64,000 nt of DNA, taken from Rhizophlyctis rosea. Lineage: Eukaryota > Chytridiomycota > Chytridiomycetes > Rhizophlyctidales > Rhizophlyctidaceae. The translations under genes and the position numbers were made by a program. This document shows positions 23,766 to 63,964 of this stretch, in pieces (position 1 is the first letter of the stretch; every line of letters starts with the position of its first letter). Location: assembly GCA_027596075.1 (NCBI GenBank), contig JADGJC010000070.1, positions 62,001 to 126,000 of the forward strand, read 5' to 3'. The notes beneath the pieces are model-generated. The model ran no database searches, was not told where the DNA came from, and saw nothing but the letters and a program-made list of their open reading frames with translations.

Positions 23766-23775
23766 NNNNNNNNNN
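23766..23775. other. scaffold gap (10 N) with GC-rich left flank
   Basis: Ten Ns of unknown true length. The roughly 95 bases to the left (about 23669-23765) are very rich in G and C, with long G runs, unlike the surroundings. That suggests a low-quality contig end or a genuinely hard-to-sequence block. Confidence 0.95.
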
Positions 23776-40262: not shown

Positions 40263-43200
40263 TTAGATCAATCTATACAACACCAATCTCCCATCGGCAT
40301 CTCCAACCACAACTGAGACCGCCGGCCCTCCACCACCATTAGCATTCGCAGACCCGTAAACACACATACAAGTAACACAAACGTCCTCCTGCAAAGGATA
40401 TGACACAATCAATCGCTCATGACTCCGGCTCCTGTCCACTGAATCCACTTCCACCACATTGGAATGAACATCGAACACCCTCATCATCTCATCATTACCC
40501 AACGTAACCAGATACTTCCCGTCAGATGTAAAGTCATAATGTGTAATTTGCACACTGGGGTGCGGGATATAGATTGGTTTTGATGGTGCATTTGCAGAGG
40601 TTTGACGAGCGGGAGGGTGTATGGTGGGGAGGAGGACAATGGTGTCACTTGATGAACGTGTCTGTCGGCCGTGATACGCGATGTACCGGCCTGTTGGATG
40701 TAGCAAACAGCGTCGAATCGTCACTGGGGCTAAGTCCGTCGCGGGGTCTGTGATATCATGAGACAGGATATGGGAGTCCTGATAGAGTGTTGACCTCGTA
40801 ACGTAAAATACTGTTTTCAAAATTGGATCCCGCTCCTCTTCCGCTCTAACTCCCTCTTTATCCTTTCCGCCATCCTTTTCTTTTCCAAGCCGTCCACCTG
40901 TGCTGCCTTCTCCCCACCGCACATCCAACACCGTGTCCCGGTCCCGTGTTTGGAAGACTTTGACTTCGCCTCCGGTCACCAGGTCCAGCACTATGCTTGC
41001 ATCATACCTTCCCAACAATATTCGTAAATGTTTCCTGCCACCATCAGATGAAACAGGCGGATCCGCCAAAACATGACACGCAACTTCAAAAGCAGGCGAA
41101 GCATCAATTTCGTATGTGGAGTACTCGACAAGCGACGAAGTTGAGGACGTTGGAGATGCTGCTGCATAGCTTGAGCTCGTAGATGCCTCCCTACTGACGT
41201 TTACACTGGACCTTGAAGATCCTTTCCTGGACACCATCCACGCGCTTAACATCCCGTCCCATGTCCATATCAGCAAGATCAACTTGTAAGCCAGTGTGGG
41301 ATGCTGGTAGATGTACGCTTTCTTTGCAGGAAGCTCGTGTGGGACAATAAAACGTAAAAGTTCCCGAAACGGACGAGGCGAGCTACTGTCGGAGCCATTG
41401 TCATCCATATCATTTGATCCCATATCCCATATAATCACGTTACTCCCAGACACACCGGTCATCATGTTGAGCGACTTGTTATGGTGATGGAATGCGACGA
41501 CTGGTGGTATGCGCGTATGGTGTGTGATGACCGAGGTGAGGTTTGAGACCGAGATGGACGTCCGCAGTAGTGTCCCAGCGGTTGAGGAGGATACAATTGA
41601 GGCCATTTCTGAACCATTGTAGGTAACGGCAACATGCGCTATGGGTCCTTCGTGGGCGTATTGCTCCATCCGCGGTGCCGCCACTAGCCTTTTCAGCTCG
41701 CATGTCACTACCTCCCCTCCACACCCTACAAATAACCGCTCTTTCCCTTTCCAAGACGCAGTCAACATGCGCAGCACCGGCTGTTTTCCGACCACAACAT
41801 TTTGGACCATCCGTCCAGCCTGGACATCGGCAATGGAGACTCTGCCGTTTCGGAAGCCGATGTAGAGACGCTTTTCGTCCAATGAAAAAGCAAGGCAGCG
41901 AGTTGATGCTGAAGGAGGGAGTTTCAGAACGGAAAGGCGGGTATTTGTGTCAATATTGTAAACTGTTATTGTGGTGGCTGATGTAGATGGGCGTGGAGAA
42001 ACGGTTGATGCCCCAACTTTTGGTTCATTGTTCGTCTTCATATCAGAGGTCATCGCAACAGCTAGGATGTCATTGCCAACAGAAAATGCTCCTGCTTCCA
42101 CCTTACAGCCTTTGAACGCTTCCTCTGACAGCTTCAACCTCGTGACTTCTCTCAAACCCTCTTGCGACTGGGAGCGCGTACTAGCACCTCCGCCGCACCC
42201 AACTCTCACCACGACCAATGCGCCCCACCGACTGGAAAGAATCGCCACCTTGGTACCATCACTTGATATCGCAACAAGGTCATCGCAGATACCCCTAAGT
42301 ATTAAAGTTTCCCTCATCGCAGCTCTTTCTGCTCCGTCACCTCCACTCGTCCCACCGGCAACCGGCAAGTGTATCCACTTCAACTGCTTATCCTCGACTG
42401 AGCTTCCCTTCCGACACGTCCAAACACCACTACCTTCCCAAATCAAGTCGGCACCTTCCCACCAGTCTTCCACAAGCCGCAATACGTGTCCCCGCTGATG
42501 TAAATCCGAGTCATGTAGCCCAAGCTTGATTAGACATAAACCGGTATCTTTCATTGCGCACACTACATCTCCCTGTGGTGTAAGACAGCAAGCGCGGACG
42601 GAATCTCTCAACAGTGGGTCTTCAACAACTGTGCCTAAGTAGGCATACGTTTCCAGCTCGTACATGGACACTGTTCCTGATGTTAATATGGTAAGCACGA
42701 CACGGCGAGATGGGCGTTCCGCTTCACGGATGGCGTATGGAAGGAGTGCGACAAGTTGATCATCTACAGGTTGACTTAGTTTTGCAAAAGCAAACGGATA
42801 TGGAGGTGCGGCCGTGATTGCTGTGAGCTCCACACGCTCAATAGTTGATGGAATGGGGTATCCTGTATCCCGGATCGAAACCGCCGTCCCTTTCGTGACC
42901 TGGAAGTCTTTCCGATCTGTTACACTAACTCGAGGGCCTAAACCTACACTAGCTCGAGGGCCAAGCATTGACCAATTCGCACTCTTGGACTTAGCTGTAT
43001 TTCGCCGTGCTTCCAATCGAATTTGTTCAGCCTCTTCCCGCACTCTGCCGCCCATCTCCTTCCCAAGGTTCCATGCAAGACTCCAGATGAGTGATGGGTC
43101 TTTCTCAACCCATCGGATACACCACCTCGCGAAAACCGTGTACTCCTCCACCATTTGGATCATTCCTCCCTTCTCTCCGTCCGTCAACCCCACATCCTTG

Positions 43201-46200
43201 GCATTAACCTGCACCAACATTCTCATCAAACATGCCAACCACTTCAAAAGTCTCGCCCCAGCGTCAACTCCCACCTCGAAAATTGCGTAAAAGGAAGAAA
43301 CGGAACACAACAAAGGCACTATGACTGTTACAGGAGCTTCCGAGTCGAAGTAATGATCAATGATATCCGGCATGCGGGTACCGCAAGCCAATTGAGGCAC
43401 CGATTTCCCGACACTTCCAATCATGCGTTCGAGCTCCAACAATCCATCCGCAAGAGCTCGATGAGCATTCCTTTGTTCCTTTTTTGTTGTCAAGAATTCT
43501 TCAATGATTGCTTTTGCGAACTCCGAATGGAAGGGGATAAAACGCCCTTCTTCAGTTGTACAGAGGTATGGCTGAATGTCCGTGAAGAACAAGTTCCATT
43601 GTATCAATGGAAAAGTGGACAAATGTGCCCATTCATGCTCGAAAAGACCATTTCGGGAAAGAGCGAGTGGTGGAAGGGTTTTGGACATTGCGGATGTGGT
43701 ATGAGTGGCGTTGAGTTCAGCGAGGAGTGGGTGGAAGATGGATGTCAGGCGTTGGGGACTGGTTGGGGTTTGTGCTGTGTGTTGGGGTTGGCGGATCTTC
43801 TTGCTGAGAAGTTGGAGGAAGAGCGGGCGGCTTGAATATGGAGACGCTTGCAGATTGGAAAGAAGCTGTGGTTCTAGTGGTGGTACGATGGATTGTAGGT
43901 ATGTGTCGCGGTCGGTTGGGGATATATCTTTCAGCTCAATGGATTGGTAATTGGGGTACTTTTGGGCAAGATGATGTTGAAAAGCGGGTGGTGACGTTGC
44001 AGTGAATAGCCAACGTGTGTTGACCCATACGTGTACGTTGAGTGATTCGATTGGGGGTAGCCAGTTCCATTGTTGCAAACTATGGAGCTCGTCCAAGGAC
44101 GTAGGTTTGTCGAGTTCATCCACAGCGTCGATGATGAAGAGCAGTTTGAATCCAGCTGCGACTGCTTCATGGATCANNNNNNNNNNATTGATTCCGCAAA
44201 GTGGCACGATGTTCCTCGGCACTAAGCTCTACATGACCACGCAAATGGAACCTGATCAACTGACAAAACCGTTTGACCATCTGTACCCCAGAAGACGAGC
44301 CGGACCAACTTCCGAGGAAGTTTGATAGAACAAAATATCCCTTATCATGATATGCTTGGCCAACTTCTTTGACTAGCGTTGTCTTTCCAACTCCGGCTTC
44401 TCCCCACAGGAAAACACACGACGAGAAGCCTTGATCGTTCCCTTCGAATGCTGCCATGATACCGTCCACCTGGTCTTTCCGTCCTACCACTAATGATTTC
44501 TCTTTCTGCCATCCCACATCTTCCTTTTCCCCTTCCATCACCCACTCCATCTCCCTTTCCTCCAAAATTTTCCCTACCGCCTCTCGCAACCACCCTTCCA
44601 TTGTTGTTTGCAACCATTCCAATCCACCAACTCTCACTTCTCCTCCTTCAATACGAGAGAAGAAGCACGGATAGTCAACCAATACGTTCCCTCCCTGCTC
44701 CGATTGATTCATCTGCAATGCGCGGGTCTTCAGCTCTCCGATGAGCCGAGCTTCCGTATGATTTCGCGGCTCAAATCTATGTCGATGAGTTTTAGGTACG
44801 GAACGGCTGAAGGTTGGGTCTCGGAAGAACAAGTAGATATGGGATGGTCGCCTGCTGGTATGCCCCGACGGCGTACTATTGCCCAAAGAAAGCGAAACCT
44901 CCTCGTCCACCAGATATTTTCCTTCCCCTTTGGCCGCACTATGGTTCATCAGTGCCGGTCCAAGCTGAGCACCAATCACTGCAATGAAAATGTCCGCCCG
45001 TGAGACCTGTGCGGATGCGGCTCTCAGGTAATCTTCAAGGGATGTGTCCCAATCAGCAAATGACTTTAAGTCGACGGTGCGGAGATGTACGCCGTTGTTT
45101 GCAAAGATTGGTTGCAGAGCTGGGATGATGATTTTCAGCACGTGGTCTCGCTCGTTGCTGGCGTCTGGTGAAAATGTGAGGTAAAGAGTAATGCGACGCG
45201 AGAAAGGTTGCCTTGTGGGTCCGCTTTGATGAAGTTGCTTGTGCACCCCCATGCCCCAGATGGCCGGTAAAAGTGTTAGCGAGTTGCTGGTAAGATGGTC
45301 ACTATTCTGCGCGCGTACTTTTGACGCAGTAAGCTGGCTTTCGGATATGGAGGTCGGGAGGACAAGGTTGGACACCAAGTCAACAGCTTCTCCGTCCTTC
45401 TTCATGATCAACGGACAGTGATAAACAAATCTTGCGCCATCCACTTCCGGTCCACGAGAATGGCTGTCGGTTGATCGTATGACTGGATCATTTGCAAAGC
45501 TAAATCGTGGATAGATGATGGGGAGACCTAGATGCGTGTCTTCGCGTACCCCGTATACCCCCAAGCTTTCCTCAAAAGTTGCATTGACCAAGTTCACATT
45601 GATCAATCCAAACGTTTGTAAGCGTTCCTCATCCGTTGTGGCAGCAGTCGAGAAGTCTATCCTGCAACGATGGATGGTCCCACCTTCTGCAGCAGCAATT
45701 GCTGTAGCGTACAGCATTGATTTCAAATCCACAACGGTTGCGGCATCCACGATCTGTGGTGTCCCCAGTGATGTCCAGCATTGCAGAAATTGCGTACTTT
45801 TCACGAATCGCTCCAATGCTGTCTTCTCCGTCCCGGTAAGTTCACTGCTCACCACACCCGCCCGACGAAGCCAATTTGTGTGAACCGTCCCCAGCAATCT
45901 TCTACATTCTTTGACCAGAGCGCTGTGGTCTGAGGCATCTGAATTACCCTTTCGAATCTCACATTTCGCTCGCAACACCCCACCGTAATCGATAGCTCTG
46001 AGCAATTTCGCCACTTCGGTAGAATATGGTAAAACTTCTGAAGTGGTATCATCTTCTATTCGCCTTGGGAGGAGCACAGAAACCAGTTTGTTGAGCAATG
46101 CCATTCTTCTATACCCACGGTGTTTCAGGGTGCGAAAAGCTCTCAAACGGGTGAAGCAATCCCTGACAGAAGCTTGAGTTACTCCGCCCGACTCTTCATC

Positions 46201-49200
46201 CCTTCCCGTCAAAAAATCGGAGAGCTCCCGTCCGGACGTGAACATCATTTCCATACGAGCACGATCAATGACATAACAGTATCCATCCACACCTGAGTCG
46301 GGCTCAAGAATCATTCCCAACTGCGACCCGAACACGTAGAGACGAACAGCCTGCTCCACCGTCGGCAGCGGCAGTCTCCTTTTGAGTAATGCGTCAACCT
46401 GACGTAGCCCCATCTCGAAATCAATTTCGTCAGACGAAGGGAGTTGTGATTTTTTGAGTGGTTGCAACTGCGTCGAGTTCAGACAATACATCCCGATTGT
46501 TTGGTAAGCAGTCAGAAGGAGGGACGGAAGAAGAGCGGTGGGTGACAACATTGGGAATGATTTCCACAAACGTTCGGCGAATGACCTGAACGACATGATC
46601 ACTGATCAGTACCCATAGTATCATACGCGAACTGAAAGATGAAAACATACCGAGGATCACATGGGAGTTTCTGGTAGATAGTCTGACAATGCAAACCAAA
46701 CCATGTGGGAATTGACTTTTCCAACTCCAATGGGCAGATCAACCAAACGACGAAATCGGTCTGCGCATCCTCTTTCGACATGACTATGGTTTCCAGATGC
46801 GACAAATAGAACGAATCCATCATGATGACCAGCCACTCTCCGCTGACAGCTGCGTAATCAAGCTTGTGCATCCAATGACATTCTACATTCAAACCAATGT
46901 TTCAGATGAACATATTACAAATTGTTGTTCAGAGAGAGGCCATACATACCTTTTTTGTCAATATCCTGCACTACAGGAACTACTCGCCTGGTTCCTGCTT
47001 GATCATCGCTGAGCTTCTGAACCAGATGACAGGCCCATTTGGGCATCCCGCTGAATACCAGTTTGATGCATTGGTGGCGCAAGTCGACGGTGAGAAAATC
47101 TTGAAAATCACTAAATCCGTGTGGTAATAGACATGGTTGACGGGTTATGAAGCCCAGCATGGTGTCAGCCGCATCATTTGGCTTATAGAATCTGCAAAGA
47201 CTGTCAGCTTTCGTGCATCAGGTGGTTCCATTTTCTGCAATACTCACAATCCTGCGATCAATTTTTGGAAATCCGTAAGTCGCTGCTCTATTCTGGCGAA
47301 CGAGGATGCATCTGCCTCTTCCAATAGTTTGGCCATATCACCCAGGAAGGGTGCAACTAGCTCTTTCAGGCGATCAGCCTGAGGCAAGACGACGTTATCA
47401 ATATGACTTGGGGCAAACGCCTACACCTCTCTGTAGTCTACTGTACCTGGACTGACTTGCGGTCACTCTTCTCCGTCAATGCCAGCAAAAGCTTTTCCAA
47501 ACTGTCTCCATACTGTTTAACTTCGCCTATACCATGGAGATAGATCAACTTCAATGCGCATTGAGACGCAATTTGATCCGTTTCCGTCATGCTTTGTGAT
47601 AGCCATCCCGCCACCCGAGTAACAAACTCCTGCATGAACCCAGCGACGGGCTCACTATATTTTGATTCTTTATGAGCATTTTCGTAGCTCGATTCGATGA
47701 AATGAAGATAGACTTTCACAGGAATATTATAACAGCCCTTCAATCGTGCTAGTTTGTGCAGCAGATGCTGCACGTCACAGACAAAATCGACAATCTGATA
47801 CAGCGGATCGTACTGAGGTGCGATCTCAGACTCATACGCATGTAGCCGGGCTTTACTGTCATCCACCTGTCTGAACTGCCGGCGGAGAAGTATTACGTCG
47901 TGCATCAAGTCGTCGTTGATGCGGGTGTTGCAAAAGCGGGTTACGATTTGTTGAGTGATAATATTAGTGGACTCTACCCTATCTTGGAGCTCTTTATGGT
48001 GTCCCAATTTGAGCATATGGAAGTCCGGTTTGCTAAACTCCATGATATAATCGAAGGTTGCACCTCTCAATGTTTCACGGTTGTGTCGGAAATCGAGTAT
48101 CGAAGTGAAGGCGGTGTGTTGGTCCGGAAGCAAGTCATACGGAATATGCACCAAGAGCAATGGGACTGCCATTTGACGTTTCACTCTGATTTCGTTTACC
48201 TTAGCCTCATTCAGGATACGGCTGATTTGGCCTGGCGTAGCCACGTTCGCTATCCATATGGGTACAGTGCCCTTCATATGGCCGCGCAGGCGTTCAATGA
48301 AGCTGGGGTCGCCTGGCGACACAGAGCTCAAAGTTCCATTGACCATATAACGATGCAAAGCCCGATTTGCAAGTAACCACGGATCTACTACATATACCAC
48401 TCCATCACCATGGGTAATGAGCTCATCAAGGGCATCCATATTCTCTTGGAAAGAAGTCACGCTTTCCAGGGATGATTCCGTTCTCATTTGTACCACTCCA
48501 TCACCATCTTTCTGTTGCGATCGGCACAAGTATCGCTGTGCGATGATTTGCTGACACTTGTCCCGCCATCCCCCCCTCGTCGCGAAAGAGAACCTCCCTC
48601 CGAAGACGCGAATGCACGCCTTCAACAGTGTGTCACCTAGCAAAGTTTCCTCCGCCGCTACTGATGTTTTTAAACCTTCGTGCAAATGGTCTTTGAGCAC
48701 ACCGATTGATTTCCGAAACCGGAAATAAAACTGGATGTCCTTTCCCATTCTCTTTCCATGATGGTATTGGTGGATGATCTGCACTAACTGTGCCAAAACC
48801 ACGTAAACAGATCGGTCTACTCCTTTTGCGATCGGAAAGGTATACTGTTGATTTGCTCGCAGCGGTGTCGGGAATTTGGGAATATTCATGTCTAAGCTGA
48901 CGTTGGCGTGAACTCGGCCTTGACCGTGTTGAATATGTCTCCTCAGTCTCCCAACCGCAGGATGTACCAATCCCAGTCGATGCGCTTTATCCAAAACAAG
49001 CTCGTGGACGAATACGGGCGGGAACACAACTCCATTGTGGGATTTTCCAATGACAATGACCTTACGATGACGTAATGAAGCATTTCTCTCTGTGTCTTGA
49101 GCGGCTGGCGCTCCATCGGATGTAGAGGTACCATCACCTGCCGCTAGGTAAGCAGAGAAAACCTGCTCAACCCGGTTGAATATCTCGTTGACTAACTCGA

Positions 49201-52200
49201 TTTGCATGACTTGGTCGACGACTGGTGTTACACTGCTGCGTTCAAGATTACCATATTCCGGTATCTTCTTCAAGAATGTTGTGGTCTTCTTGTAAGCGCT
49301 GCCACCAAATTTTAGAGGATTTTTGAAAACTTCAAGGGTTCACGATTCACGAACCTGAGCCCAACGGCACCTGCAATGTATTGGAGGAACTCGCCTTCTA
49401 GCGCTTTCACCCGATCATGGTTTTTCGTCATATAGACATACAGCTTTCTCCAACTCAAAGCAGGCGGGTACTGGAAAGCAATGCCCCATCCGCGACGAAC
49501 AGAAAACCACCGCCACATGGGAGGGTTTAACAGACGATTATGCCATCCTGTACTGACTTGTGCGGAGCGCCCCAACGCCTTATCGTCCAGAAGGGAGAGG
49601 ATGGCGGTCGTTAGTTCCTCCGGGAGATATTTGATGAGATCTACGTACACGCGACAATACTGCTCTTTGGCGCGCATGGTAAGTGCACTCACGTCGCGCC
49701 GATCTAGATGAGTCTGAATGATATCGAGCGTGCGAGGATTATCGATTTTGAGCTGGACTAGTTGATTCATGAACGCTTCTGGACTGCGGCGGATCCACTT
49801 CCGAAGGACAGTGACGTCGGCTTCCCATCCAATGAAATTACAGACAACTTGAATGATTTTTGAGAGTAAAGGATGGACCTGTGGTGTTGCCAAGTCGGTC
49901 AACAGGGTTTGAATATCCACTTGCTCCAACGAGTATTTGATTGTTCTGCATGCTTCAATGATCCTTTCGAAAGTCCAAAAATCGATCACCTCGCCGTACA
50001 CCCTCCTCCATAGTTCATCGAAGGATTGTTTCGCCTCCTTGACCAGTTCTTCCGTTCTATGTAGTGCGGTTGCCAACCGTTCTCTGCGTGCATTATAGGT
50101 ATGCAGGGCTAGCGCAAGGTCGCGAACAAGGAACGCGGCTCGACAGCCTTCCACCGGTTTGACGGCAGTTGTTGCAGCCATTTTGTTGTCTACATAGTCA
50201 TCAGCCATTTAGATTAACAAGGATGTTGCAACATTACATACCATAAAATGCCGAGCTTTGAAAGAGAGGATCAGTCACCGCCATTTTCAACACTTTGGCG
50301 TTACTTTGTGAAATGACGCCAAGATTTGCCGCCCGCAACTTCTTCTCCACGCCATCAGGGAGGCCGCCTGATATCGAATTGCGCATGCCAAAAAGTCGAT
50401 AAATAGTTGTGAGAGCATGACGGGAAAACTCATTTCTAGAGGCCTCTCCATGTAAATCTCGTAACTCGCTCTGGTTTAAGTATGTCGTCAGGTCGCATGC
50501 CTTCTTCAGTAATTTGTCGGTCTCGATCTTCTCTTCAGATAGACTAGAACGGAGGTTTGTAAGATCATTGAGCGCATGTTGATATGCATCATGAGCCACA
50601 GCAACTCTCTCATCATCGAATAGTACACCATCGTCTCCAGCATGGAACGCTTGCTGGATCCACTGCGCCTCCGAAGTTGGGTCGTTATCAGCAGCAAAGG
50701 TGTTCGAGGGATCGAAAACTTCATTCAAAAGTGCTAGGCGTCCCATCACCTGCGATCTATGGTCGACCAACTCTAGCATATGCTTTTTCAACTTGCTGTA
50801 CTCCTCTACTAAATGGTCGACTTCGGATTTATCTGTTACTGTTGTGTCCGCACTGACAGTCACATCCAATTTTCTATTGGTCGAAAGCTCCACAGCATAA
50901 CCCCATACACATCGCACCCAATTGGCTAAGGCTTTCACTGGTTCAAGTGCACTATACAGACGGTCGGCCTGACATAAGGACTTCATGAGGACCTGCATCC
51001 TTTTGAAAATGCCTTGCAGGGCCTGCGTACCTGAATGATCGGGGATTCCAGTACTTTCTGCAGTTTTTGTATCTTCGAAGGAGCTAGGGACTTTGGTTCC
51101 AACATAACAACTCGCTGCAGAAAAGAATGGCTGGAAATAAGCTTTTTTCCTTCCGCCCAGGAAGACTTGCGGTCGAATATCAAGCATAAAGCTGAAGCTA
51201 AAAGTTCAACATTCTGGGGCGGAATTGTGAAGCCCTTGCAAACAAAAAAGGTCACCGTTTTTTGGAAAATCTGCTCTATTCATTGTACTCATTACGGTAC
51301 CTTCATCTCTTCAATGTCGTCTTTAGATAAGGTTTGCAGCTTTTGCACACTAGCCTCGTAGGCTGCTCTGGCAGCTTCCACCGAGCGATGCGCAAGCTCT
51401 GCTTCCATTTCTCGTTTTCGGCGCTGTGCGGTCTCTTCAGCATGCTTGATTTCTATGTGACGCTGTTCAATGAGTGCGGCCTTCTCCTCTTGTTCCCGAC
51501 GGCATTTCGCAATTTGCAAATTAGCCTGGTGTAATTTTTCCGGCAGAGCCGCCATTTCTTCTTGAGCTTTTTGCAGGCTTTCTTCGATGACAGAATCGGC
51601 TTTTGAGATTTCGGTTAGTGCAGCTTCGAACTCGCACTTTGTTTGACAAATTGCCTGCTGGGTGTCTAGCAGATGGCGGCCAAAACTCACGAGGAATTTC
51701 TCGAAATGACACATTGACAGGCATAAGTGATTACAAGTATGAAGGGTGATGTAGAAGAGTTCGCTCAACGTTTGCGACACCTTCTCCGCATCCGAGCCCA
51801 GGTTAGGGATATGGGCTTGCATCCACATTTTTGCAACATCAATCAGCATCTCAACATTCAGGGGTTGAATACGTAATAGATTCATTCTGGATTCTAGAGA
51901 AATACAGCATATGGTTGGAAGGGAACATGATCAATGTGATTCTCCTATCTGCACTCACCGAACCACTCCGTGGAGTCCTTGTCTGGGATATTCACTATCA
52001 GCGAGAGGTTTCGGCTGATGTCCTTCCCCAGTGTGCGCAAAGCTTCAAACTTCGAAGCTGTTTGACCTTGCTCTGCAGTCACCGTCATTCCAACATGTGA
52101 AGATTCCAGTCCTTCACTGAGAGTGCTGGACTGCCCAGCCATCCGCCTCCGTTTCAGTAAAGTGTTCGTCAACAGATCTTCCCATTCGGATGCCATCCAC

Positions 52201-55200
52201 AAATGTTTCATGGGACTTTCATCCAAAATCGCCGCTAGGTCTCTCCATAAGGTATTGTTGCTCAGTTGGAAACCGGGTTCGATTTTGACGTGAAAAACCA
52301 CTCTTTGGTCGTTTTTGGCGGCTATGGAAAGTGCATCTCGGAGTTTCGTTTGCCATTCTCCTTCCACCAAACCTCCGTAAGGAAGAAATTCCACTATGCT
52401 CAAGCCTGACGCAGCGGCACTCAACCGCACCACTTCATCCATGTGATCGACCGCCGATGGGACACGCAAAACAACGTGCCCTCGCTGCTTTCGAATTATA
52501 CGGTCCAAATGCAGAAAGTCTGCCATCGCTCTTGGTGTCGTCATTGAAAACCCGTTGCTCTTAATGCCGTGCGTCTCAAAGTACCTCAGAATGTCCGGAA
52601 CCCACGTTGTTGTTGACACTGGCTCATATGCCCCCCGACCTTCGGCTAAAATGTCTGAGAATATCACATTGCTTGCGTAAGCCCTTTGAAAAACTCGTGC
52701 CCCAATCAGCTTTGATGCCCTTCCAAACAGCACTTCATCCCGGTCGGAAAGCCCATCCTGAAATTCTCTCTGCATCTCATGCTGCCACAGCGATGCCGCA
52801 ATATTTCTGTCCTTCAAAAGACTGGGAGCCATGTTCATGATGTAGTAAAGTGCTGCCTCGATTCGACGCAACGAAAAGCTCTGCAGAACGGCATTGTCAA
52901 TTGAGCGAAAGGTTTTCTGCAGAAAGCAATATAGCTCCACAGTTGCCTTAAAAATGGTGGCGCCGAGGCCACCTGTGAACCGTTGGGATGCTCTTAGCGA
53001 CAGCTCACCACGCAAAGTATCTTCTTCCCAAAAAGGAAACACCGTAAAATGCCGTAAGGACATCTCAGATAGGCCCTGCAGCTGTAAGTTGACATCGCGG
53101 GTAATGACAGCCGACACGCCTTCCACCTTTCGGAAACAACGTGGTCCACTCCAATATCCCCCGATGTCCCCCAATCCATCTAGTAATTCAATCTCCGAAA
53201 CTGTGTAGTCGTCTACAAAAATTATCAATTTCTTACCCCCCAAGGGTCGAAAGTACTCTTTCTTTGGTTCTTCCAGCAACATCTGCCGTAATGACGCATG
53301 AATCGAATCGTTTCGCCCATGAAAGTGCGTCATGTGTTGCGAATAGTTGGAAAGTAAATCGAGGATAGTTTCGCGCTTGCCGCAGACCTCGCCGCATATT
53401 AACAGGTTGGTGCCATGCCGGAGAAGGAGATCACACACTTTGCTCCTGACCAACATGGGGACTTTTGTGTCCGATTCCGGCAATTCCCATTTCCCTTCAC
53501 CGAAGTCAAAATTCATTTCGAACAGGGACCTCTCAGCCGAATGTGTGGCCATTCCAGAGGACCAAAACTGCAGGCCTTCTTGCCCTTGACATGACGTACT
53601 CAATTGCAGCAGTCGCTTTTCAAAAGGCATTCGCCTATCAAAGGGTAGGAATGCCCCTACTGACCATATCAACGCAAAGATACACCCCTCGCGAACAACG
53701 CTCGATGATGGAGTACTATAAGTATCGTGGGTCTCACGTCCTATCAGATAATGCTCTCTGATTCCACTCTCGAGGATACGCAACAATGTTCGAAGCGCAA
53801 CCTGCTGGCCTACAACATTGCCCCCAATGGTCCACAGATCTTCAAAAAACATATCCAAGCAGCCGGTAACCAACCTCACAATGAGCTTGGCATTTTCGGG
53901 GCCAGCAATCCATCCCTCCTTTACAAACTGCTCGGCCCAGCCCGCAACATGACGCCGCCAATACCACTCTTGTTTCATCACCACCGGAACAAACCGTCCT
54001 ACGAGTTTCGGCAATATCATGGTTGTCTCAACGAAAATGGTGCAGGTTCTGGAGACAACAACCCTTTTCCCGGAAGATAAGCAAGTCCCACCCGGACTTG
54101 TCAGATCATATAAATGAACTATCATATCCGGATCAACACCATCAAACACCAACCATTGATTCCGTTTTTCGCTTTCCTGAGTCTGCAACGAAAGAACCTC
54201 TTCGATAAGTCCATTCACAAACCCAGCAGCCGCCTGAAAACCCAACAACACATCTTTACCAACGGCTTCTGTTCTGACGAAATAGGTGTTCCCATTGAAT
54301 TTGGCTGCGGCGCTTCGGATAAGTGACGTCTTGCCCGTGCCCGCTTTCCCAATCAGTAGAATGTGCTGGTTGGCCTCCAGCGCACATGCAATTTCCGCAT
54401 GTTCTTCTTCCAAAAACTCTTTCGCTCCGACCTCCGTGATACTGATGTTTACATCAAAGGCTTTTTGCAGCAAGAGTTTGTACATTGGGAGATCTTCCGC
54501 TAGCAGTTTAGGCCTTACGATGGCTTCAATGGCATCCACCAATACGTCGATCTCCGTCTTTCCGATTTGGGACTCATACATGCGTCTGAACGCCCCAAAT
54601 ATCATTTTCAGCATTCGGATGGTGAAGTCGTACTGGGGCTGTTCGGAGAGCAAATGAGGCGCCATTTTTAGGAATGTTCCAAGCTTTGGTCCCAATTCAA
54701 CCTTGGTCACATAACCATGGCTTTGAAACAATGATTCTGATACCGCAACCAAATCGGGTGCAACGGTGTTGATGATGCGCATCTGTGACCGCACTTTCCT
54801 GACCACCTCCGAGTCCATCTCACATTTTCGAGACAGCGTAGCAAAACATTCTATACTCTCGCTTGGTGGTAGCTTGATTGCCCTGCCAAAGAAGGTTGCG
54901 GACATCTCTTTCCGTCCAATCAAATCTCGCAGCGTTTGCAAGGCCGCCGTCCAGTCAGAGAACGATTCGCTATTCAACAGGTCGAGATTACGGAATATGA
55001 TGCAGACGTTGGATGCAACTCCTGTCATCAGTCGTGTTATCACCAGTGGAGCCACGGCTTTGTTTAACGAGTATTCAATGGCGAACTTTCCAATTGAAGA
55101 AAGATGCAACCTAATGAGCTCCGTCTTTCCAGTAGCGGAACTACAAGTTGCAATCCCAAGTTTGCAGTTGGATGCAGCCCATATTCTCCCGACGCAAGAC

Positions 55201-58200
55201 TGTGACTGAAATTCTGGAAGTTTGACTGATGGTCCGAGATAATCAAAGTTGTAACGGGTTGAATAAACGGACTGATGCACTATAACAGACAAATCATCTT
55301 CATCGTGCGTGTAACGCAGCCCGTTCAGCCATTCAAAGTCATCCGCAGCCTCTACGTGACTTTCTTCTAATTGCTTTGCCCAGCAGCGGTACCCTATCAA
55401 CGCACTGATCAGTGTCCTCCACGAACATTCCTTCCCACTGTGCCACAATTCAGAAGCCGCCCCGATAACCTTTCGACACACTTCCTCGATATGTTGGAAA
55501 CTGCCCGTCCCGGCGCCGATCATTCCTTCCACTACTGCAGTCATAAAGACCTGCATCGCCAGCAACCTAACCTGTCCAACGGTAGTGCTCTCCATCAATG
55601 TCCTCAAATCCCTTTCCCAGTCCACAGCTTTCCGGCTTTTTACATCAATCCCCCTCAAGCAACTAAACAACATCTCCTGCAGAGTTGACTTCATCTCGCC
55701 CTCCATTTTTGACATCCAAGTTTCCACTGTAAAACTCCGCGTGCCGATATGGTTGCGGAACATGAGGTTCTCCCCCTCAGGGCTTTCCATCCCCGTGATA
55801 CGAAACTCCCCACCCTCCGAGTCGTTCCAGTCTCGATCCTTCTTGTACGCGATGCGCTTGATCCGGAACAATTTTGACAGTGCGAGCGACACACTGTCGG
55901 GTGATTTAGCGGATGATACAAGGGAGAGAAGTTCGTCGTCCGAAAGGCAGAACAGACGCGGAAAGATGAGCCGCTTGTTGTCTAGCCATCCTTGGAAGTC
56001 TTCAACAATCTTTTGGAGGGACAGAATCATCTCATCCAACATGGCTGGCAAATCCGTTGCACCACTCGTGAGCATTCGAACACTTCCTGAATTGGTGACA
56101 ACCCTATTGGTAAGTGTTTTGTATGACCCTTCGATGCCGCGAAAGCGTTTCAATTCTGTGGCGAGTTGTAGGCGAACTTGATCTGTTGTGAAGAAAGAAT
56201 GGACAGTGTGAATCAGGGGTTGCAGGGTTGCCCAGAGTTTAAGAATATTGAGTGCGACCGAGAGGTCGGATTCTAGTTCAGAGAGTAGGGCAGAGTAGCG
56301 TTCTGACGAAGGGGAGGAATTCAGCATGTTCAATGCAAGCAGGTCGGACTCTATCAGCGGCGTTATGGAATCGATGGAGGTGAGTGTGATAAAAGGTTGA
56401 GATCCGTCAACTTTGGTGGGCAGAACTAGAGACTCGAATCGTTTCTGGACGGTCTCAATTGTTGAACGGACGGAGCTTTCCTTTTCTGCAGCATCGCCAA
56501 TTGCTTTGAGTTCTGATATGACTAACTCCATCTGACGATCTCTGCAGTTTTGTGTCAGTTCACGAAGCGTCGCACGCTTCGGGTCGGTGCTGGAGTCAAG
56601 ATCCAAAGCTTGTTTGATGGCATCCCAGTGCCAACCGCGCAACCCCGGATTGGTGAGGATTCGTAGCACAGGCAATTCCGTTTGAGCAAACCGAGACAAC
56701 TCCTCATCCGCTGCTTTTACCGTTATGGAGCTCAGTAAACCAGATGATTTTACTATACTTTGCAACGCCTGGCTCTTCTTCAACACCTCCGTAATATTCA
56801 GTTTTGCGACTGGATCGAACCGCCAGTGCCGGAAGTCTTCTCCCAATCCGATGAGCCCGTTTACAAGCGCCAATCGTGACTCCAAACTACCATCAATATC
56901 CGTCAAAGCTTTTATCCTCGTGTCATCACGGATACAGTCAGCCTTGTACCGGATAGCGCGACCAACTTCAATAGCATCCGTGATGTGCTTCAGTACATTG
57001 ATAAGTCTCGGTATAGGAGCCGTCTTGCCGAACTCTTTGATTATTTTGCCCGCAAGGGTAGAATCATCAAGCAACTTTACAAGTTTTTCCTCGACACCCT
57101 TCTGGACAGTCCAAAACATTTCCATCTCCCTATCCAGGGTCATTCTTAACCGCCGCGTCGTGTCTTCCACTTCAGCCTCTCTCAACGTCAGAAAAGCTAA
57201 CAACTGCTGTCTAAGAGTGTAAACACGGTAGAACACTTCCACGATCACATCTTCCAGAAGATACTGTGCATCCTCCAAAAATGCATGCACCTTCTTGATG
57301 AATGAATCTTGCTCTTTAATCCGCGGAAGAGCCGCTTTCAATTCAGCGATCGTTGAAATCGCGATTTTGGCTTCGTCGAAAGACATCGGCGGACTTAATG
57401 TGAAGAAACGCTCACAGGTTTGGAAACTTTGAAGGTAAGATACCAAATGGGATGAAATAGTCGACAGGACATTGGACCGGTGATGCTCTGACCACTGCGC
57501 CAGAGCATCATTCATCTCGACCAAGCGTATGAGGAATATGCCGCGTTTCACTGCTGCAGGTTGACGAGCTATGCAGGCCCGGATTTGATCTATATCCCGG
57601 ATGAGCTTCTTGCACACCACTAGATAAGCGTCTACAGGCATATCTTTGTTCAACACCTGGGAAGCGCTACGAATACGGGGTAGGAATGTTTTTCGCACTT
57701 CAGATAAGTAGTCTGTTGCTGCAGCTGCACTGTCGCTGATGAGGTCCTTGCACAAATTCTCAATGTAGCGATGGTCGCCTGGCGTGGAAACTAGGATGCC
57801 GTCCGGAAGAGTGCATTCAACTGGAGCTAACCAGGATGTCATGGCCTCGCTTATGTGATCGCTGGCGTAACTGATCGGAGTACTGAAGTCGATGCTGAGG
57901 GGGTCATGAGTGGAAGTGCTATCGGTCGCAGATTGCGTGGCTTGCAAAGAAAGTGCTATTGCCAGGCTCCCTGATTTGAACAGTTGATAGGTTTCCATGA
58001 TACGGTCCCGCAACAGCGGCGTAAAGTAGGATTCTGCTAATGCTGATACGACCTTCGAGAGTCCCACCTCAAGATCCTCCACTGATGCCGCTTCCTCCTG
58101 CGTTTCAAGGCCATCTTTTAACCGAGACTTCACAATCTCGGGTGCACGGATATGTACCGCCTCTACAAACTGAGCCTTAACAACTGCGGAAACCTTTTGG

Positions 58201-60966
58201 AAATCAGCTGGTGAAATAGTCATCATTCCGTTCCCGTCCATATCCACAATGATCATTTCCTCCTCCGGCCCATCATTGACCAAGTCCAAAGCAGATGCTG
58301 CCCGCATAGACCGTCGAGGTGCAGCGCTAGACCTATACCGCCTTCCGTCACTTTTGCTTTGTTGATCTTTCTGGCCATCCACAGCAACGGGACTTGCCGA
58401 AGCGGGTGCCGTCTTTCTCCCCGAATCCCGACCAGCGTCCGGAACATACCGAACAGGTCCCTGCAAGCTATCCCCAACTCCTAACCCCAAACACATTTCC
58501 AATTCCTCCTTCATGTGTGCCAATACATTCACAATAGGTCTGGTGAGAAAGACCAACTCCCCTTCCATGTCAAGTATGCGGCGTTGCACAGTCACAGCAG
58601 CAACATTCCCAAAATCAGGATGATCAAACTCATGTGGGGTCTCGTCCATGGCGGGGTTGGGTGCTGAGTGAAAGAGCCTGTGATCCGAATCAAAGACAAC
58701 GGACAGTGGGGCGAAGTCACGGAAGATGGCATTTCGAACCAGGGCTGTGCGGACTTGAGAGTTGTAGTAGTCGTTGCGTAAGGCATTGAGTTCTGCAGTG
58801 TAAGTCACCGGCCGAGAAACTGGCACATCTTCGTCTTCTTCCATCCCAGACCCCTCCCGGTCCCTATCAGCAGAAGTACTCCAACCGGCTCCCGTCATTG
58901 AATTCACCGCACGCGACAAAATTCCCTCCACGTGCCGCGTAGGAAATAGAGAAATCAACCCCTCCAAATGTGGCCGCACAATAGCCACCCACTCCCGCAC
59001 CGTAGCATAATACTCAAACTCAGCTCTAAGATACTGCGCCGTCATCAACTTCCGCCTTTGCCCCTCCGGCGTTTCCCAAGGCGGCAGGATCTCACAGCTG
59101 GTAACCCATGTCGACGCAATGCGAGTGGCCCGACCCGGTTTCGCAGTAGCTTCCCACTGGATCTGGAACTCCTTCTGAATGGGATCGTAGGAAAGAATGG
59201 TGCAACGTTTCCAATCCGACACAGATCCTGAACCGTGGTAATGTGCAGCGTCCTCCCAAAGCAATTCACCGGAGTCATGCTCGAACCCGTTCCAAGGTGC
59301 TGTACGAGCACGGTATCCTGGTGCCGTAAGATTGTTGATGATCCTTTCTGTTTCTTCTGCATCCATGAAACTGTCTAAAGGGAAAATATGTCCTACTCGT
59401 GGGCCTCCTTTGTGGAACTGAGACTGTTGCGGATCATGAAGCATGGCTACCTCATGGCTATTTATCCCCTGAAGTTGCATCAGTTTGCGTTCAGCGTATG
59501 GAACGTTAAATGCGGCCATGGTGTCTTCGATGCATTCAAGAGTTGCTGGTAACGATTTGGAAGTAGTGGTGGGGGCCTGCTGCTTCAGGGATAGTGCTGT
59601 TCAGTAAAGATATTGTCTCAATCACAATCAAGCTGCACCCACCGACATAATTTCCTCCTTTTCGAGCAACTCGCCAGCCCCACTAGCATAATCATCAAGC
59701 CCGCCAGCCATAGATACTTTCCAATCAACTTGTCCGAAATCAGGCAGTTTGGGAAGACTTGCCGAGAGCACTAATCGTGATGCAGCTGGTGTAAGTCGAG
59801 GCAAATGTGGTACGGGCGGTATTTTGTATCGATCTGCAATCGTCTTCATATGTACACTTTTCTTCTTCAGATCCACAAATTCGGTTGGAACGTGAGGTAC
59901 AGTCAGGCCTGGAGGTACATTTGGTCTGAATTGAGGCTGGACGAGTGTGGACAGGTCTAATAACGCCTGATTTGCATTGTCGTGGGTTACCTGATTAGAT
60001 GACAAGACATATAGATATCAGTCAATAGGTTTTCAGCATTTCCAGAAGTAACAAGGTCTGAACACCGCCGCAACTTACGTGATGGAAATCTGCTGCTGGG
60101 GCTGCAACATTCGACGAGGGCCTCTGTCCCCCATCAACCACTTGGCTCTTGTATGGGGATCGCTTGTTCATGGAGTTTGCCTCTGTGCCCGGGGCTCGGA
60201 CATAATAGCCTTCCGTAGCGCTATCAATAAGTTTCTTCAAGATTTTGCGGACAGGACGTGAAAGCGGACGTATATTCCTCGGCAAAATCAGCTCGGACAC
60301 CGATATTGTTGACGATTGACTCCTATCCGCCTGCTCTGCCTTCACTGCCTTCGTGTCGCTAAGAAGCCTAGATGTCATCGGCAACCGTTCCCTCCCCTTC
60401 ATCAACTCCCCATCTTTGGCCGCAAGCTCATCGGCTCGGATGAAGATATACGAATCCAGTTCCCTAAACTCATTCAGCATTTTCCTTTGCTGATTAGACA
60501 GCTCCGCCGTTCGCGGCCTCACAACTCGACCTTTGCCCCCATGTGTACTACGCTTCAACGCATCCTCCTGCCGTCGTTGTGCTCCAGATCCAGGCTTCCC
60601 GCTACCGTTGCCCCCATCTGCAATATCGATCAATTGATTTGCCGCCTCGTCAAAAGAGACATTCACCACCCTTTCTGTTCGTACGAGAGGTCGACCGGAA
60701 CTATCGAAGCCCTTTACAGCGGTTCCGCCGCCTTCTGTGTCCGTGCTGCCAAAGAAGAGTTCGAGCCATCTGCCTTCTGCTCGCTCCCACCGGGACCCAT
60801 CTGTGTCGGCGTTACTGCCAGTCAGTGGTCTGTTTGTGGGACGATTCTGATGAATAGCTTCTTCATCACTGCCATCGCTATGTTGATCTGGGTTCAATAC
60901 AGGCGCGGCAGGAGGTGAAGTATGGATGGTGGTGGGGCTGTCGACAGGGCTCAAGGCCTGCAGCAT
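40263..60966 (-). CDS. giant dynein heavy-chain-like protein fused to F-box-like, DUF4062-like, NACHT and WD40 domains
   Basis: Twelve exons, complement(40263..46585, 46651..46882, 46950..47191, 47248..47378, 47447..49298, 49355..50189, 50242..50992, 51031..51234, 51301..51893, 51959..59579, 59643..59990, 60079..60966), about 6,670 residues. All junctions keep frame; the weakest donor is GTTCGT at 49354. Order: disordered N-terminus; dynein stem/linker; AAA1 with SATGKTEL (about 1890) but FRNLD where Walker B is expected; AAA2 with GKAGTGKTS (about 2158) and WLVFDGVDP; AAA3 with eroded GEVCGKRET but intact IIFVDDY; AAA4 without a P-loop; stalk coiled coil and binding-domain part (exons 4-6); F-box-like LPEELTTAIL..W (about 3650-3700); AAA5 (LLGDTLLKA); AAA6; dynein C-terminal domain (Y.CP core). 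About 35 residues later come a DUF4062-like domain, NACHT (GEAGVGKTT, LLFIIDAVDELD) and WD40 repeats. A gap lies in NACHT. Family knowledge: dyneins drive flagella, and NACHT-WD40 proteins are STAND switches. Combined role unknown. Confidence 0.8.
44177..44186. other. scaffold gap (10 N) inside the NACHT domain
   Basis: Ten Ns between the Walker A side (ending HRATLRNQ on the minus strand) and the Walker B side (starting IHEAVAAG). The frames on the two sides differ by one if ten bases are taken literally. Since the length is a placeholder this is not evidence of a frameshift; some residues of the NACHT core are simply missing. Confidence 0.95.
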
Positions 60967-61363
60967 GATGACAAGTATTGAATTTGACAATCAGTTTTAC
61001 GCGTTTTGTCGGTATTCCAAAGATAAGAATTGGTGTCCGCTGCTAGGCGAAAATTGCGAAAGTTGGCTTGCAAGTTCCCCACAAGCCAGAGGTGCGACTG
61101 GGGTGGGATGAACAACCGTGGCGCACATGTTGTCAATCCGATTATGAAATGGGTATTAATTAATCGAGCCACCGATCATCCCATTTACCCAATGAAATTC
61201 ACTGGGTAAATTGGGTAATGCCTCTGATCTATCAATCCACCTTTGCGATTCAAGAAAATGTATCAGTGCCTTATGCTAAAACATGGCCTTTTGCGAGCCA
61301 ACAATTCGTCTCTGAAGCGGTGTGTGGTCAGACCCCTCCCAGGCATCGACTATTCTCGCCACA
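60967..61363. promoter_or_regulatory. bidirectional promoter between the dynein-NACHT gene and the cNMP-binding gene
   Basis: Only 397 bases separate two ATGs that point away from each other, so the regulatory DNA must be shared. It contains an inverted repeat ATTTACCCA (61183-61191) / TGGGTAAAT (61203-61211), followed directly by a further TGGGTAA (61212-61218). These repeated TTACCCA boxes are candidate transcription-factor sites. No clear TATA box or RFX X-box was identified. Confidence 0.5.
61183..61218. repeat. TTACCCA inverted plus direct repeat
   Basis: Perfect 9-base arms (ATTTACCCA and TGGGTAAAT) are spaced by 11 bases, with a third partial copy (TGGGTAA) abutting. It lies near the middle of the shared promoter. 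Confidence 0.7.
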
Positions 61364-63964
61364 ATGACAACATCCACCACCTCCCGCCCAACAACACCAA
61401 CAACTCTTTCCCGAGCTTCCCGCAGTTCCCAGCGAGCATCCTCGTCCTCCACACTCAACCAAACAGTCAGCTACATCCGCACTCGCAAGGACTTCTCCGC
61501 ATACAAAGCATTGAAAGCCCGAGAGAAAAAGCTCGACGATGAGCGGAAGCAGACAATCAAGCACTTGCGGGAGAGCATGGGGGTTGACGACGAAGATGTG
61601 CCGGAAGTGGCGGCCAGATTGAAGATCTTTGCGGATGAGGAGAAAAGTTCAGCAGGCAAAATCGGTGCGAACGGGGTGGGGAAAGCGGGTTCGATTCAAC
61701 TTCAGGCTGGGAAAAAGGAGAGCGCTTTTTGGGAGGAGATGGCTGATGTGAACATCACTATTGATCAAGCTGTATCTACACCGTCTGATCAGGCAGCGGC
61801 GCAACACACAAAGGTAAAATCATTTCCCAGTAGTCGCGAGTCACTGTCACCTTCAAGAAATAGTGTAGTAGGTGGAAAGGGGTTGAAAAGAGGGGACGAC
61901 TCATCAAAGTCGGGAACTTTCTTTCCGAGGGCAAGGTCTATTAGTCCTAACGTTAGGACCGCCCCACCAGCGGTAGAAGATTTTGGACGGCTGTCAATCC
62001 ATAACCCACAACGAAAAGCTTCTGCCAATCCACTGTCCAGTCCCCTAGTAACAGCACCCAGCCCGCTCCTCAGAAAAGTCTCCCGTGTAGGAGCGAATTA
62101 TACACCCGGAACCATGACGCCATCCAGTGATACACAATCGCGCGAGGGTTCGCTCTCGTCTCTTAGCCCCATAATGACGAGACAAGCTTCCTCACATCAC
62201 CGCATGTCCCTCGCTACTCCGTCGTTCCCACGTTCTCCGTCAGGAACGCGTGAAAGACAGTCCATATCAACCACCATAGCTGCCGCATCGTCCTTCCAAC
62301 GGAATCAATCCTCCGCCACCTTCAACGACCGCCGAATCTCGAATTCCAGTCGTACGCAGTCCACCACTGGTCCATTGGATCGACGTCGTTCTTCTGCTTT
62401 TGGACGTGGAGGATTAATCAGACGACCCTCCGAAACCGGTCGACGACCTTCAGAATCTGGCCGGAAGTCCTCCATCCTCCATAAAACGATATCTAACACC
62501 TTCACCGCACCCACCGACCAACCAGACCCAACCGCATCCCGCCACCAATCCCGAAAACCCACCTCCCACCGCCTCCGCCGCACCGCCCGCATGGTCGGAC
62601 ATGCCGTCCACCTAATCAAATTCCTCTCCCGCGTCTGCAAGAACCCAATCGACTGGGACTGGCACTACGACCCTCCAACGAGTCTTACGGGTCCATCTCC
62701 AACAACTTCCGATCAGAACGGTCACGCAACACTGACGAATAGTCATGACCTCTTTGGAGTGCGGAAGTTGTTTGAGTCGAAACATTTTGCAGGGTATTTG
62801 GATCCGGATATGCGGATGTTATTTCGGAAGGAGGAGGTGGAGCGGACAAAAGCGGATCTGGATCGGATGCTGATGTGGTGTGGGAAGATGGATGGGTTGG
62901 CCAAGTATCATCCGGAATTGCAAGTAGGGTTTATTGAAGAAATTCTCATCCTTTCCGAGAGCATCCACACTGAATTGATATATCTGTACAGCGTCGCCTT
63001 CTGAAACAAGCCCGTTATGAACGCCACCAACCCAACCGACTTATTCTGCGCGAAGGACAAAAAGCCATGAATTTTTATATCATTTTGGATGGAGAAGTGG
63101 AAGAGACCAAGATCGATCGTGCACAGGTTATCATTGCCCGAGAGAAGTCGTTGGCGCTGGCGGCATATAGTCAGGGAAAGAAGTCGATATCACATGGTGG
63201 TGAACATGAAGAGGATGAAGAGAAAGTGCCAAAGCAGGGAATAAATAGGGCGAAAGTTGGGTTTCGGTTGAGTGAGGTTTCGGTAGTCGAACATAATGAA
63301 GGAAATGATGCTGCAATGCCAGGTGCAACAGACAACACGCACGATGAGACTTTGGAAACAGACCTATCAAAAGGATCCAGCATTACCGAGCCCAGCACGA
63401 AGCCCGTCCCTAAAAGTCGTGTAAGAATGGTTGCAGAGGGTTCCGTGGAGGGACTTGATCGTAGTCGGTATATGGGTGACTCGCCTCGGATGAGTACGGA
63501 GCAGTCGGCCTTGGCGGAGGATATCCGGGCCTTGGATGAGGAATTAACAAAAGCTTACACTTCACGGTTGCAAAGGAGGGGTGCTGGAGGTATGTCATGA
63601 GAAGGATCCCCCTTAAAAATAGTTTCCCTTCCAAAATGAGCAAAGAACATTTGATTGATTAATGTTACAATACAGAAACTTTTGGCGACTCCGCCATTCT
63701 AACCCACACGGACCGACAAAGTTCCTTCACCACAACTCGCACGAGCGAGTTCTTGGTCATAGATGCTGACGAATTTCTTGCGGTGGTATCCGGATTCGTG
63801 GATGATGATACGGCACATAAGATGGAGGTTATTCGATCTTTGGAGGTTTTCAAGACTCTTGGGAGTGAAGATGAGATTGCACGGACTTGTGGGATGCAGA
63901 AATTCAAGAGTGAGAAGGCGGTGGTGGTGGAGGGTGGGAGGAGTGAGAGTTTGTATTTTATCAG
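61364..63964 (+). CDS. cyclic-nucleotide-binding-domain protein (CNBD2-like), 3' end outside the window
   Basis: Exons 61364..62923, 62992..63589 and 63676..63964 are seen; a donor (GTAAGT) at 63965 shows the gene continues. The first about 380 residues are Ser/Arg/Thr-rich and disordered with a short coiled coil (YKALKAREKKLDDERK). A basic helix (HAVHLIKFLSRVCKN) recalls the region before the first domain of CNBD2-type proteins. CNBD 1 begins around NRLILREGQKAMNFYIILDGEVE. It is interrupted by about 170 low-complexity residues and resumes at ETFGDSAIL..DRQSS, the phosphate-binding cassette, in which the usual FGE glutamate is Asp; it ends FLVIDADEF. A second CNBD starts at the window edge (FKSEKAVVVEGG, LYFI). 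Family role: cAMP/cGMP sensing; CNBD2 is linked to sperm. Head-to-head with the dynein-NACHT gene, which suggests co-expression (inference). Confidence 0.8.

Follow-up and report, generated by a model that had tools for sequence, protein, structure and literature searches.

Results

One gene spans a dynein heavy chain and a STAND module

The window analysed here is a 64,000-nucleotide stretch of the 44.1-Mb genome of Rhizophlyctis rosea (C603:62001-126000). Its minus strand carries, between 60966 and 40263, a gene whose predicted product joins a dynein heavy chain to a DUF4062-like domain, a STAND nucleoside triphosphatase (NTPase) and WD40 repeats. A sequence-only reading had proposed such a single gene, running in one frame from a dynein N-terminus to the WD40 repeats, and the mapping of a public R. 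rosea protein bore this out. That protein, HDV00_011185 (P0001; 6,179 amino acids), was found by homolog search, is 100% identical to the window over the 2,551-codon dynein exon that anchored the search, and is encoded by the same gene. It mapped exactly to the minus strand in 11 blocks separated by 10 gaps. Nine of these gaps are 52-186 nt long, with GT...AG found by eye in each, and the tenth (44265-44160, 106 nt) merely bridges a run of 10 N. Since P0001 maps across the fusion, the public gene model already contains it. P0001 omits part of the microtubule-binding domain, treating that stretch as an intron, and lacks N-terminal exons that are conserved in the HK097 protein P0002 described below. 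The features of the gene are as follows.

40263..60966, minus strand: whole fusion gene, ATG to stop (P0001 mapping 59576-40266; match of P0002 to the N-terminal exons; ATG at 60966 from the open reading frame)
55662..56843, minus strand: dynein linker, DHC_N2 (Pfam E 1.3e-55)
54414..55199, minus strand: AAA1, degenerate, with Walker B acids and sensor lost (AAA_6 E 6.5e-28; motif columns)
51301..51894, minus strand: exon encoding the stalk coiled coil's rising arm (stalk region, hhalign Prob 98.9; exon mapping)
51037..51234, minus strand: core of the microtubule-binding domain (49/66 residues identical to P0002; hhalign)
49504..49629, minus strand: F-box (PF12937 E 9e-9, 35.4 bits, cut-off 24.3)
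46728..48658, minus strand: AAA5-AAA6 region, introns included (hhalign Prob 97.4, E 1.1e-11)
45331..45819, minus strand: Dynein_C, the last dynein part (hhalign Prob 87.2, E 3.9e-6)
45196..45330, minus strand: linker of about 45 residues from dynein to the DUF4062-like domain (identity between orthologs 7/34 aligned residues)
44581..45195, minus strand: DUF4062-like (TIR-like) domain (TEP1 domain 11gz, E 6.4e-11; 101/200 identical to P0062)
44899-44901, minus strand: codon of the putative catalytic Glu (alignment to TEP1 E1008)
44380..44403, minus strand: Walker A of the STAND NTPase, GEAGVGKT (AAA_16 44.9 bits; kept in P0062)
44177..44186, no strand: run of 10 N, an assembly gap within the STAND NTPase (window sequence)
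44115..44144, minus strand: Walker B stretch of the STAND NTPase, LLFIIDAVDE (conserved in P0062)
40266..42905, minus strand: WD40-like beta-propeller region (ANAPC4_WD40 30.2 bits, cut-off 22.9; 351/822 identical to P0062)

The domain order in the window is thus linker, AAA1-4, stalk with microtubule-binding domain, F-box, AAA5/6, Dynein_C, DUF4062-like domain, STAND NTPase and WD40. The same order was found over two annotated proteins of HK097, another assembly under the name R. rosea that is divergent from the first. The first of these, P0002 (3,686 amino acids), aligns to P0001 3-3323 with 39.5% identity and adds the N-terminal exons absent from P0001, matching the window at 60852-60079 and from 59954 onward. 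Because its best match in the R. rosea genome is the fusion gene (45%), P0002 does not represent a paralogue among the R. rosea dynein loci. The second, P0062 (HK097_006660; 2,144 amino acids), aligns to P0001 3870-4078 (83/211 identical) and 4220-6179 (749/2049), and alone spans Dynein_C, the linker, the DUF4062-like domain, the STAND NTPase and WD40. The two are probably neighbours on one 28.5-kb contig, as each lists a contig of 28,507 bases. Mis-assembly is very unlikely, because P0062 crosses the junction between the dynein C-terminus and DUF4062 in this second assembly, and the same crossing counts against the possibility, raised with the sequence-only reading, that the two halves are always separate genes in relatives. 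A search of the R. rosea genome found no second copy of the junction exon.

Comparison of the orthologs showed that the F-box (31/51 identical), dynein linker (201/388), DUF4062-like domain (101/200) and NACHT region (75/160) were better kept, followed by WD40 (351/822), AAA1 (103/256) and AAA6 (79/195); AAA2 (81/258), AAA3 (75/249) and AAA4 (58/179) were among the least kept. Further cases of the fusion may exist, because the homolog searches need shared exact words and were run without a set of chytrid genomes. A homolog search with the 804-residue exon found none among 7,989 scored candidates at E 0.001, a result that says little because the search drew its words from the first 500 residues and limited candidates to lengths of about 442-1,407.

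The dynein part has a degenerate AAA1

By its sequence, the N-terminal part of the protein is a dynein heavy chain by descent, up to its very C-terminus. Beyond the Pfam matches to the linker and AAA1, AAA_7 matched at E 7.3e-11, and later parts were placed by hhalign, which compared two-row profiles of the fusion gene with a profile made from 53 of 59 database dyneins (lengths 3,800-4,850). The AAA5-AAA6 alignment spans P0001 3502-4081. Dynein_C corresponds to P0001 4363-4525; its alignment ends at column 580 of the 593-column profile, and the reversed control gave Prob 0.3. The dynein C-terminus went undetected when the last dynein exons were searched by sequence against Pfam and PDB. The nearest solved sequences are axonemal chains, the best being Chlamydomonas DHC2 (8glv, E 1.6e-55). 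An assignment to a dynein class was tried and dropped: in a FastTree tree of 64 rows (leaving out 8 redundant DNAH14-like rows, L042, which is the same gene, and rows covering half of the region or less), the orthologs paired with support 1.0 on a long branch that groups near other long branches (support 0.217-0.88), and we assign no class for that reason.

We compared the AAA1 motifs with the dynein consensus (Walker A GPAGTGKT, Walker B FDEFNR, sensor NPGYAGR). The window gene reads SSA-TGKT, FRNLDL and SRKCEMD at these positions, and P0002 reads GE-HPGKT, FRHVDR and SRATEGS. The two Walker B acids are thereby replaced by R and N in the window gene and by R and H in P0002; of 59 database dyneins, 55 have the D and 53 the E. 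AAA1 was canonical at 10 of the 12 R. rosea dynein loci in which it is covered, the exceptions being the fusion gene and a locus on contig C144. Elsewhere in P0001, AAA3 (GEV-CGKR) and AAA4 (LRVPSAVDH) are altered and AAA2 (GKAGTGKT) is intact. The dynein power stroke is driven by hydrolysis at AAA1. That both orthologs lack the Walker B acids therefore counts against movement, and the fusion protein is probably not a working motor. A normal set of dyneins is present in the R. rosea genome.

Two other dynein loci were observed. The C144 locus (C144:42448-53755; L043, L050-L052) encodes another dynein in which AAA1 is degenerate (GPDDAGKA / FKGLER / TEPYSKW); its dynein match extends to the normal C-terminus. 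At C431:136137-136800 (L047, L048), a partial DHC_N2 match lies in two frames, one with an internal TAG, and is perhaps a dynein fragment or pseudogene.

The stalk tip is well kept and an F-box follows it

The stalk and microtubule-binding domain were recovered by hhalign with Prob 98.9. The core of the tip is well kept between the orthologs (49/66 identical), which suggests that the protein may bind microtubules. Between the microtubule-binding domain and AAA5 sits the F-box, in both orthologs (33.8 bits in P0002 against the cut-off of 24.3); the sequence-only reading did not mention it. About 400 codons (window 51000-49650) separate the microtubule-binding domain from the F-box, a stretch that is conserved between the orthologs (208/450 identical over P0001 2741-3190). 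The segment before the F-box had been suspected of being a second microtubule-binding-like fold. The hint is weak: it scored Prob 10.9 (E 0.0028) by hhalign, compared with 0.7 when reversed and 98.9 for the true domain, and it did not match the true microtubule-binding domain of the same protein.

The junction and the DUF4062-like domain

Dynein_C, which extends to about 45331, and the DUF4062-like domain, which starts at about 45195, share one exon block (46584-44266), and the junction falls within 773 residues of P0001 that map to the window without interruption. The two domains had been described as lying about 35 residues apart in one uninterrupted exon; the uninterrupted exon was confirmed, and the spacing becomes the linker of about 45 residues listed above.

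The sole PDB sequence match of the DUF4062-like domain was the TEP1 DUF4062 domain, which was also matched from P0062 (E 7.5e-6) and from the two-row profile (E 1e-8). The Pfam DUF4062 model had no match in the window pieces or P0062 and 0 matches in the genome, so that the DUF4062 label given earlier is backed by the match to a solved structure and not by the family model. Glu occupies the position of TEP1 E1008 in both orthologs (DEEV, DDEI), and the positions of R908 and R976 are P and Q in both; the 11gz numbering behind these assignments is inferred, R908, R976 and E1008 landing on R, R and E. In the text of a 2026 preprint (PMC13174449), DUF4062 is a TIR-like family of NAD+-cleaving enzymes (NADases), with activity reported for bacterial Swarozyc and human TEP1 (E1008). 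The same text reports human NWD1, NWD2 and NPHP3 to be inactive as NADases, and describes loss of R908/R976 as lowering TEP1 activity without abolishing it.

The STAND NTPase and WD40 repeats

The P-loop is intact in both orthologs (Walker A GEAGVGKT in the window, GPAGAGKT in P0062), and the Walker B acids are kept (FIIDAVDELD and FIIDEVDCID). The module had been called NACHT. A P-loop NTPase with Walker A and B is indeed present; the Pfam NACHT score stayed under its cut-off in every scanned piece (15.1, 12.6 and 15.7 bits against 26.7), the window pieces being split by the N run, and the database entry for P0001 lists PF05729. AAA_16 passes in the window and misses in P0062 (30.7 bits against a cut-off of 32.6). 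Because NACHT is below cut-off in all scanned pieces and AAA_16 passes in the window alone, STAND NTPase is the safer label. Several propeller models matched the WD40 region below their own cut-offs. By its sequence, the C-terminal part of the protein is of the TEP1/NWD1 kind.

The N run at 44177-44186 interrupts the STAND NTPase, and the printed frame shifts across it; P0062 is continuous there. The window contains three assembly gaps, each of exactly 10 N (9803-9812, 23766-23775 and 44177-44186). Elsewhere in the R. rosea genome, nine NACHT matches pass the Pfam cut-off (L001-L008 and C491:7919-8410), although a 2014 survey reported no chytrid NLRs in its text (PMC4986451). According to a 2022 survey, TIR-NLRs were reported in Chytridiomycota (PMC9815663).

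A divergently oriented gene lies upstream: open frames on the plus strand at 61316-63600 begin about 350 bases from the fusion ATG and give a weak cyclic-nucleotide-binding match (19.7 bits against a cut-off of 27.5).

Discussion

The reading that we favour, to which we give about an even chance, is that a single gene codes for a giant STAND (NLR-like) receptor with a pseudo-dynein as its N-terminal two thirds, and that this receptor is tethered to microtubules and acts through its F-box. The dynein part would no longer walk but would hold the protein on cytoplasmic or flagellar microtubules. Once the WD40 propellers detect a ligand or damage, the STAND NTPase would exchange nucleotide and cluster, and the clustered F-box would bring an SCF ubiquitin ligase to targets located at the microtubule. 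Cleavage of NAD+ by the DUF4062-like domain would be a possible second output. We rank the F-box first because it is among the better-conserved parts, and NAD+ cleavage lower because the fusion has other residues in place of the two arginines supporting TEP1 activity. The earlier suggestion of a microtubule-bound scaffold coupled to a STAND switch fits the conserved tip core, the intact P-loop and P0062; a working motor is made improbable by an AAA1 that lacks its Walker B acids and sensor in both orthologs. The roles offered as examples with that suggestion, flagellar assembly control and internal immunity, gain nothing specific from the present results.

Parts of this architecture are familiar. 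As in TEP1, NWD1 and NWD2, the DUF4062-like domain directly precedes the STAND NTPase and WD40 stands at the C-terminus, but in the fusion about 4,500 residues of dynein, including an F-box, come ahead of DUF4062, and unlike TEP1 it lacks a Pfam DUF4062 match, R908 and R976. It shares with axonemal dynein heavy chains the linker, the six-AAA order, the stalk, the microtubule-binding domain and the C-terminal domain, and differs from them in its lost AAA1 catalytic residues, its inserted F-box and its C-terminal STAND module. DNHD1, an animal orphan or ghost dynein gene, resembles it in being described as a dynein heavy chain gene of non-standard type that a genome has kept, whereas the part of that description consulted mentions no STAND module or F-box (PMC8754002). 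Fungal NLRs, in which NACHT or NB-ARC is combined with repeats and varied N-terminal domains, likewise have their STAND switch flanked by an effector-like domain and by repeats; a word search through two surveys of them (main texts of PMC4986451 and PMC9815663) did not find dynein or F-box. The open-access literature searched, which leaves most subscription papers outside, yielded no description of a dynein-NLR fusion; at least three papers there mention both dynein heavy chains and NACHT (PMC11797021, PMC8455134, PMC4607824), the first of them also coming up for dynein with DUF4062, and no open-access paper was found on a dynein heavy chain fused to an F-box domain or on a dynein of the R. 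rosea genome. A link to vaults was sought through the MVP shoulder family, which was unmatched, a null that is uninformative because no control genome matched either.

Several observations weigh against the favoured reading. AAA1 Walker A retains GKT and the AAA2 Walker A of P0001 is intact, so the dynein part may still bind nucleotide. The microtubule-binding core, at 49/66 identical, exceeds all 167 sliding windows of 66 residues in the ortholog comparison, but this top rank is descriptive and no test because the stretch was picked for looking conserved. Against the dynein assignment itself, no dynein-specific Pfam family matched, at E up to 1, in 44193-46605 and 47438-49339, and a whole-genome Dynein_C search did not return the fusion locus among its matches. 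The lid with Dynein_C is weakly conserved (72/286). Structure prediction from two-row alignments gave unusable models both for the F-box exon (mean predicted local distance difference test score, pLDDT, 41.4) and for the junction exon (30.6). Conservation was seen in two assemblies that both carry the name R. rosea. The HK097 annotation splits the gene into two proteins; P0001 3324-3869 (about 545 residues) is absent from both, and P0001 4079-4219 has no counterpart in P0062.

It is possible, if unlikely, that the same fused receptor acts by NAD+ cleavage through its TIR-like DUF4062 domain, the F-box serving the turnover of the protein itself. The reported NADase activity of the family and the Glu at the E1008 position in both orthologs (under the inferred 11gz numbering) are consistent with such an output, although P and Q replace R908 and R976 in both and three human proteins, NWD1, NWD2 and NPHP3, are reported as inactive (PMC13174449). 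Rather improbable, too, is that the dynein part is a decaying relic, with function confined to the DUF4062-STAND-WD40 half. The altered AAA1, AAA3 and AAA4 motifs, the low conservation of AAA2-4 and Dynein_C, and the precedent of DNHD1, which is termed a ghost gene in the text consulted (PMC8754002), would suit a relic, but two assemblies, about 39% identical there, both keep the dynein part in frame, and the microtubule-binding core, F-box and linker are conserved at least as well as the STAND half. It is very unlikely that the protein is a functioning axonemal dynein to which a regulatory tail was added: the full dynein order with its stalk, the axonemal chains as nearest solved sequences and the normal dynein set of the organism agree with it, yet the AAA1 Walker B acids and sensor are gone in both orthologs. 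That two separate genes were joined by annotation or mis-assembly, as the two HK097 proteins and the N run inside the gene might suggest, is scarcely credible, because AAA6 and Dynein_C share one protein with DUF4062 in both assemblies, the junction is contained in an uninterrupted mapped run of 773 residues, the HK097 split falls about 650-1,200 residues before it and the N run lies downstream of it.

A bolder form of the favoured reading is a receptor of a new category, a dynein turned from motor into microtubule antenna, with microtubule-binding stalk, ubiquitin-ligase adaptor, TIR-like NADase, STAND switch and propeller sensor in one chain, and we consider it doubtful. If it were true, a signal at microtubules, perhaps flagellar ones, would set off ubiquitination or loss of NAD+ locally in chytrid cells. 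On the favoured reading, the protein would be a natural link of microtubules, a ubiquitin ligase and NLR-like signalling in a single chain, and a dynein heavy chain would be able to lose its engine and serve as the tether of an immune-type switch. The fusion would thereby suggest one reason why dead dyneins are retained.

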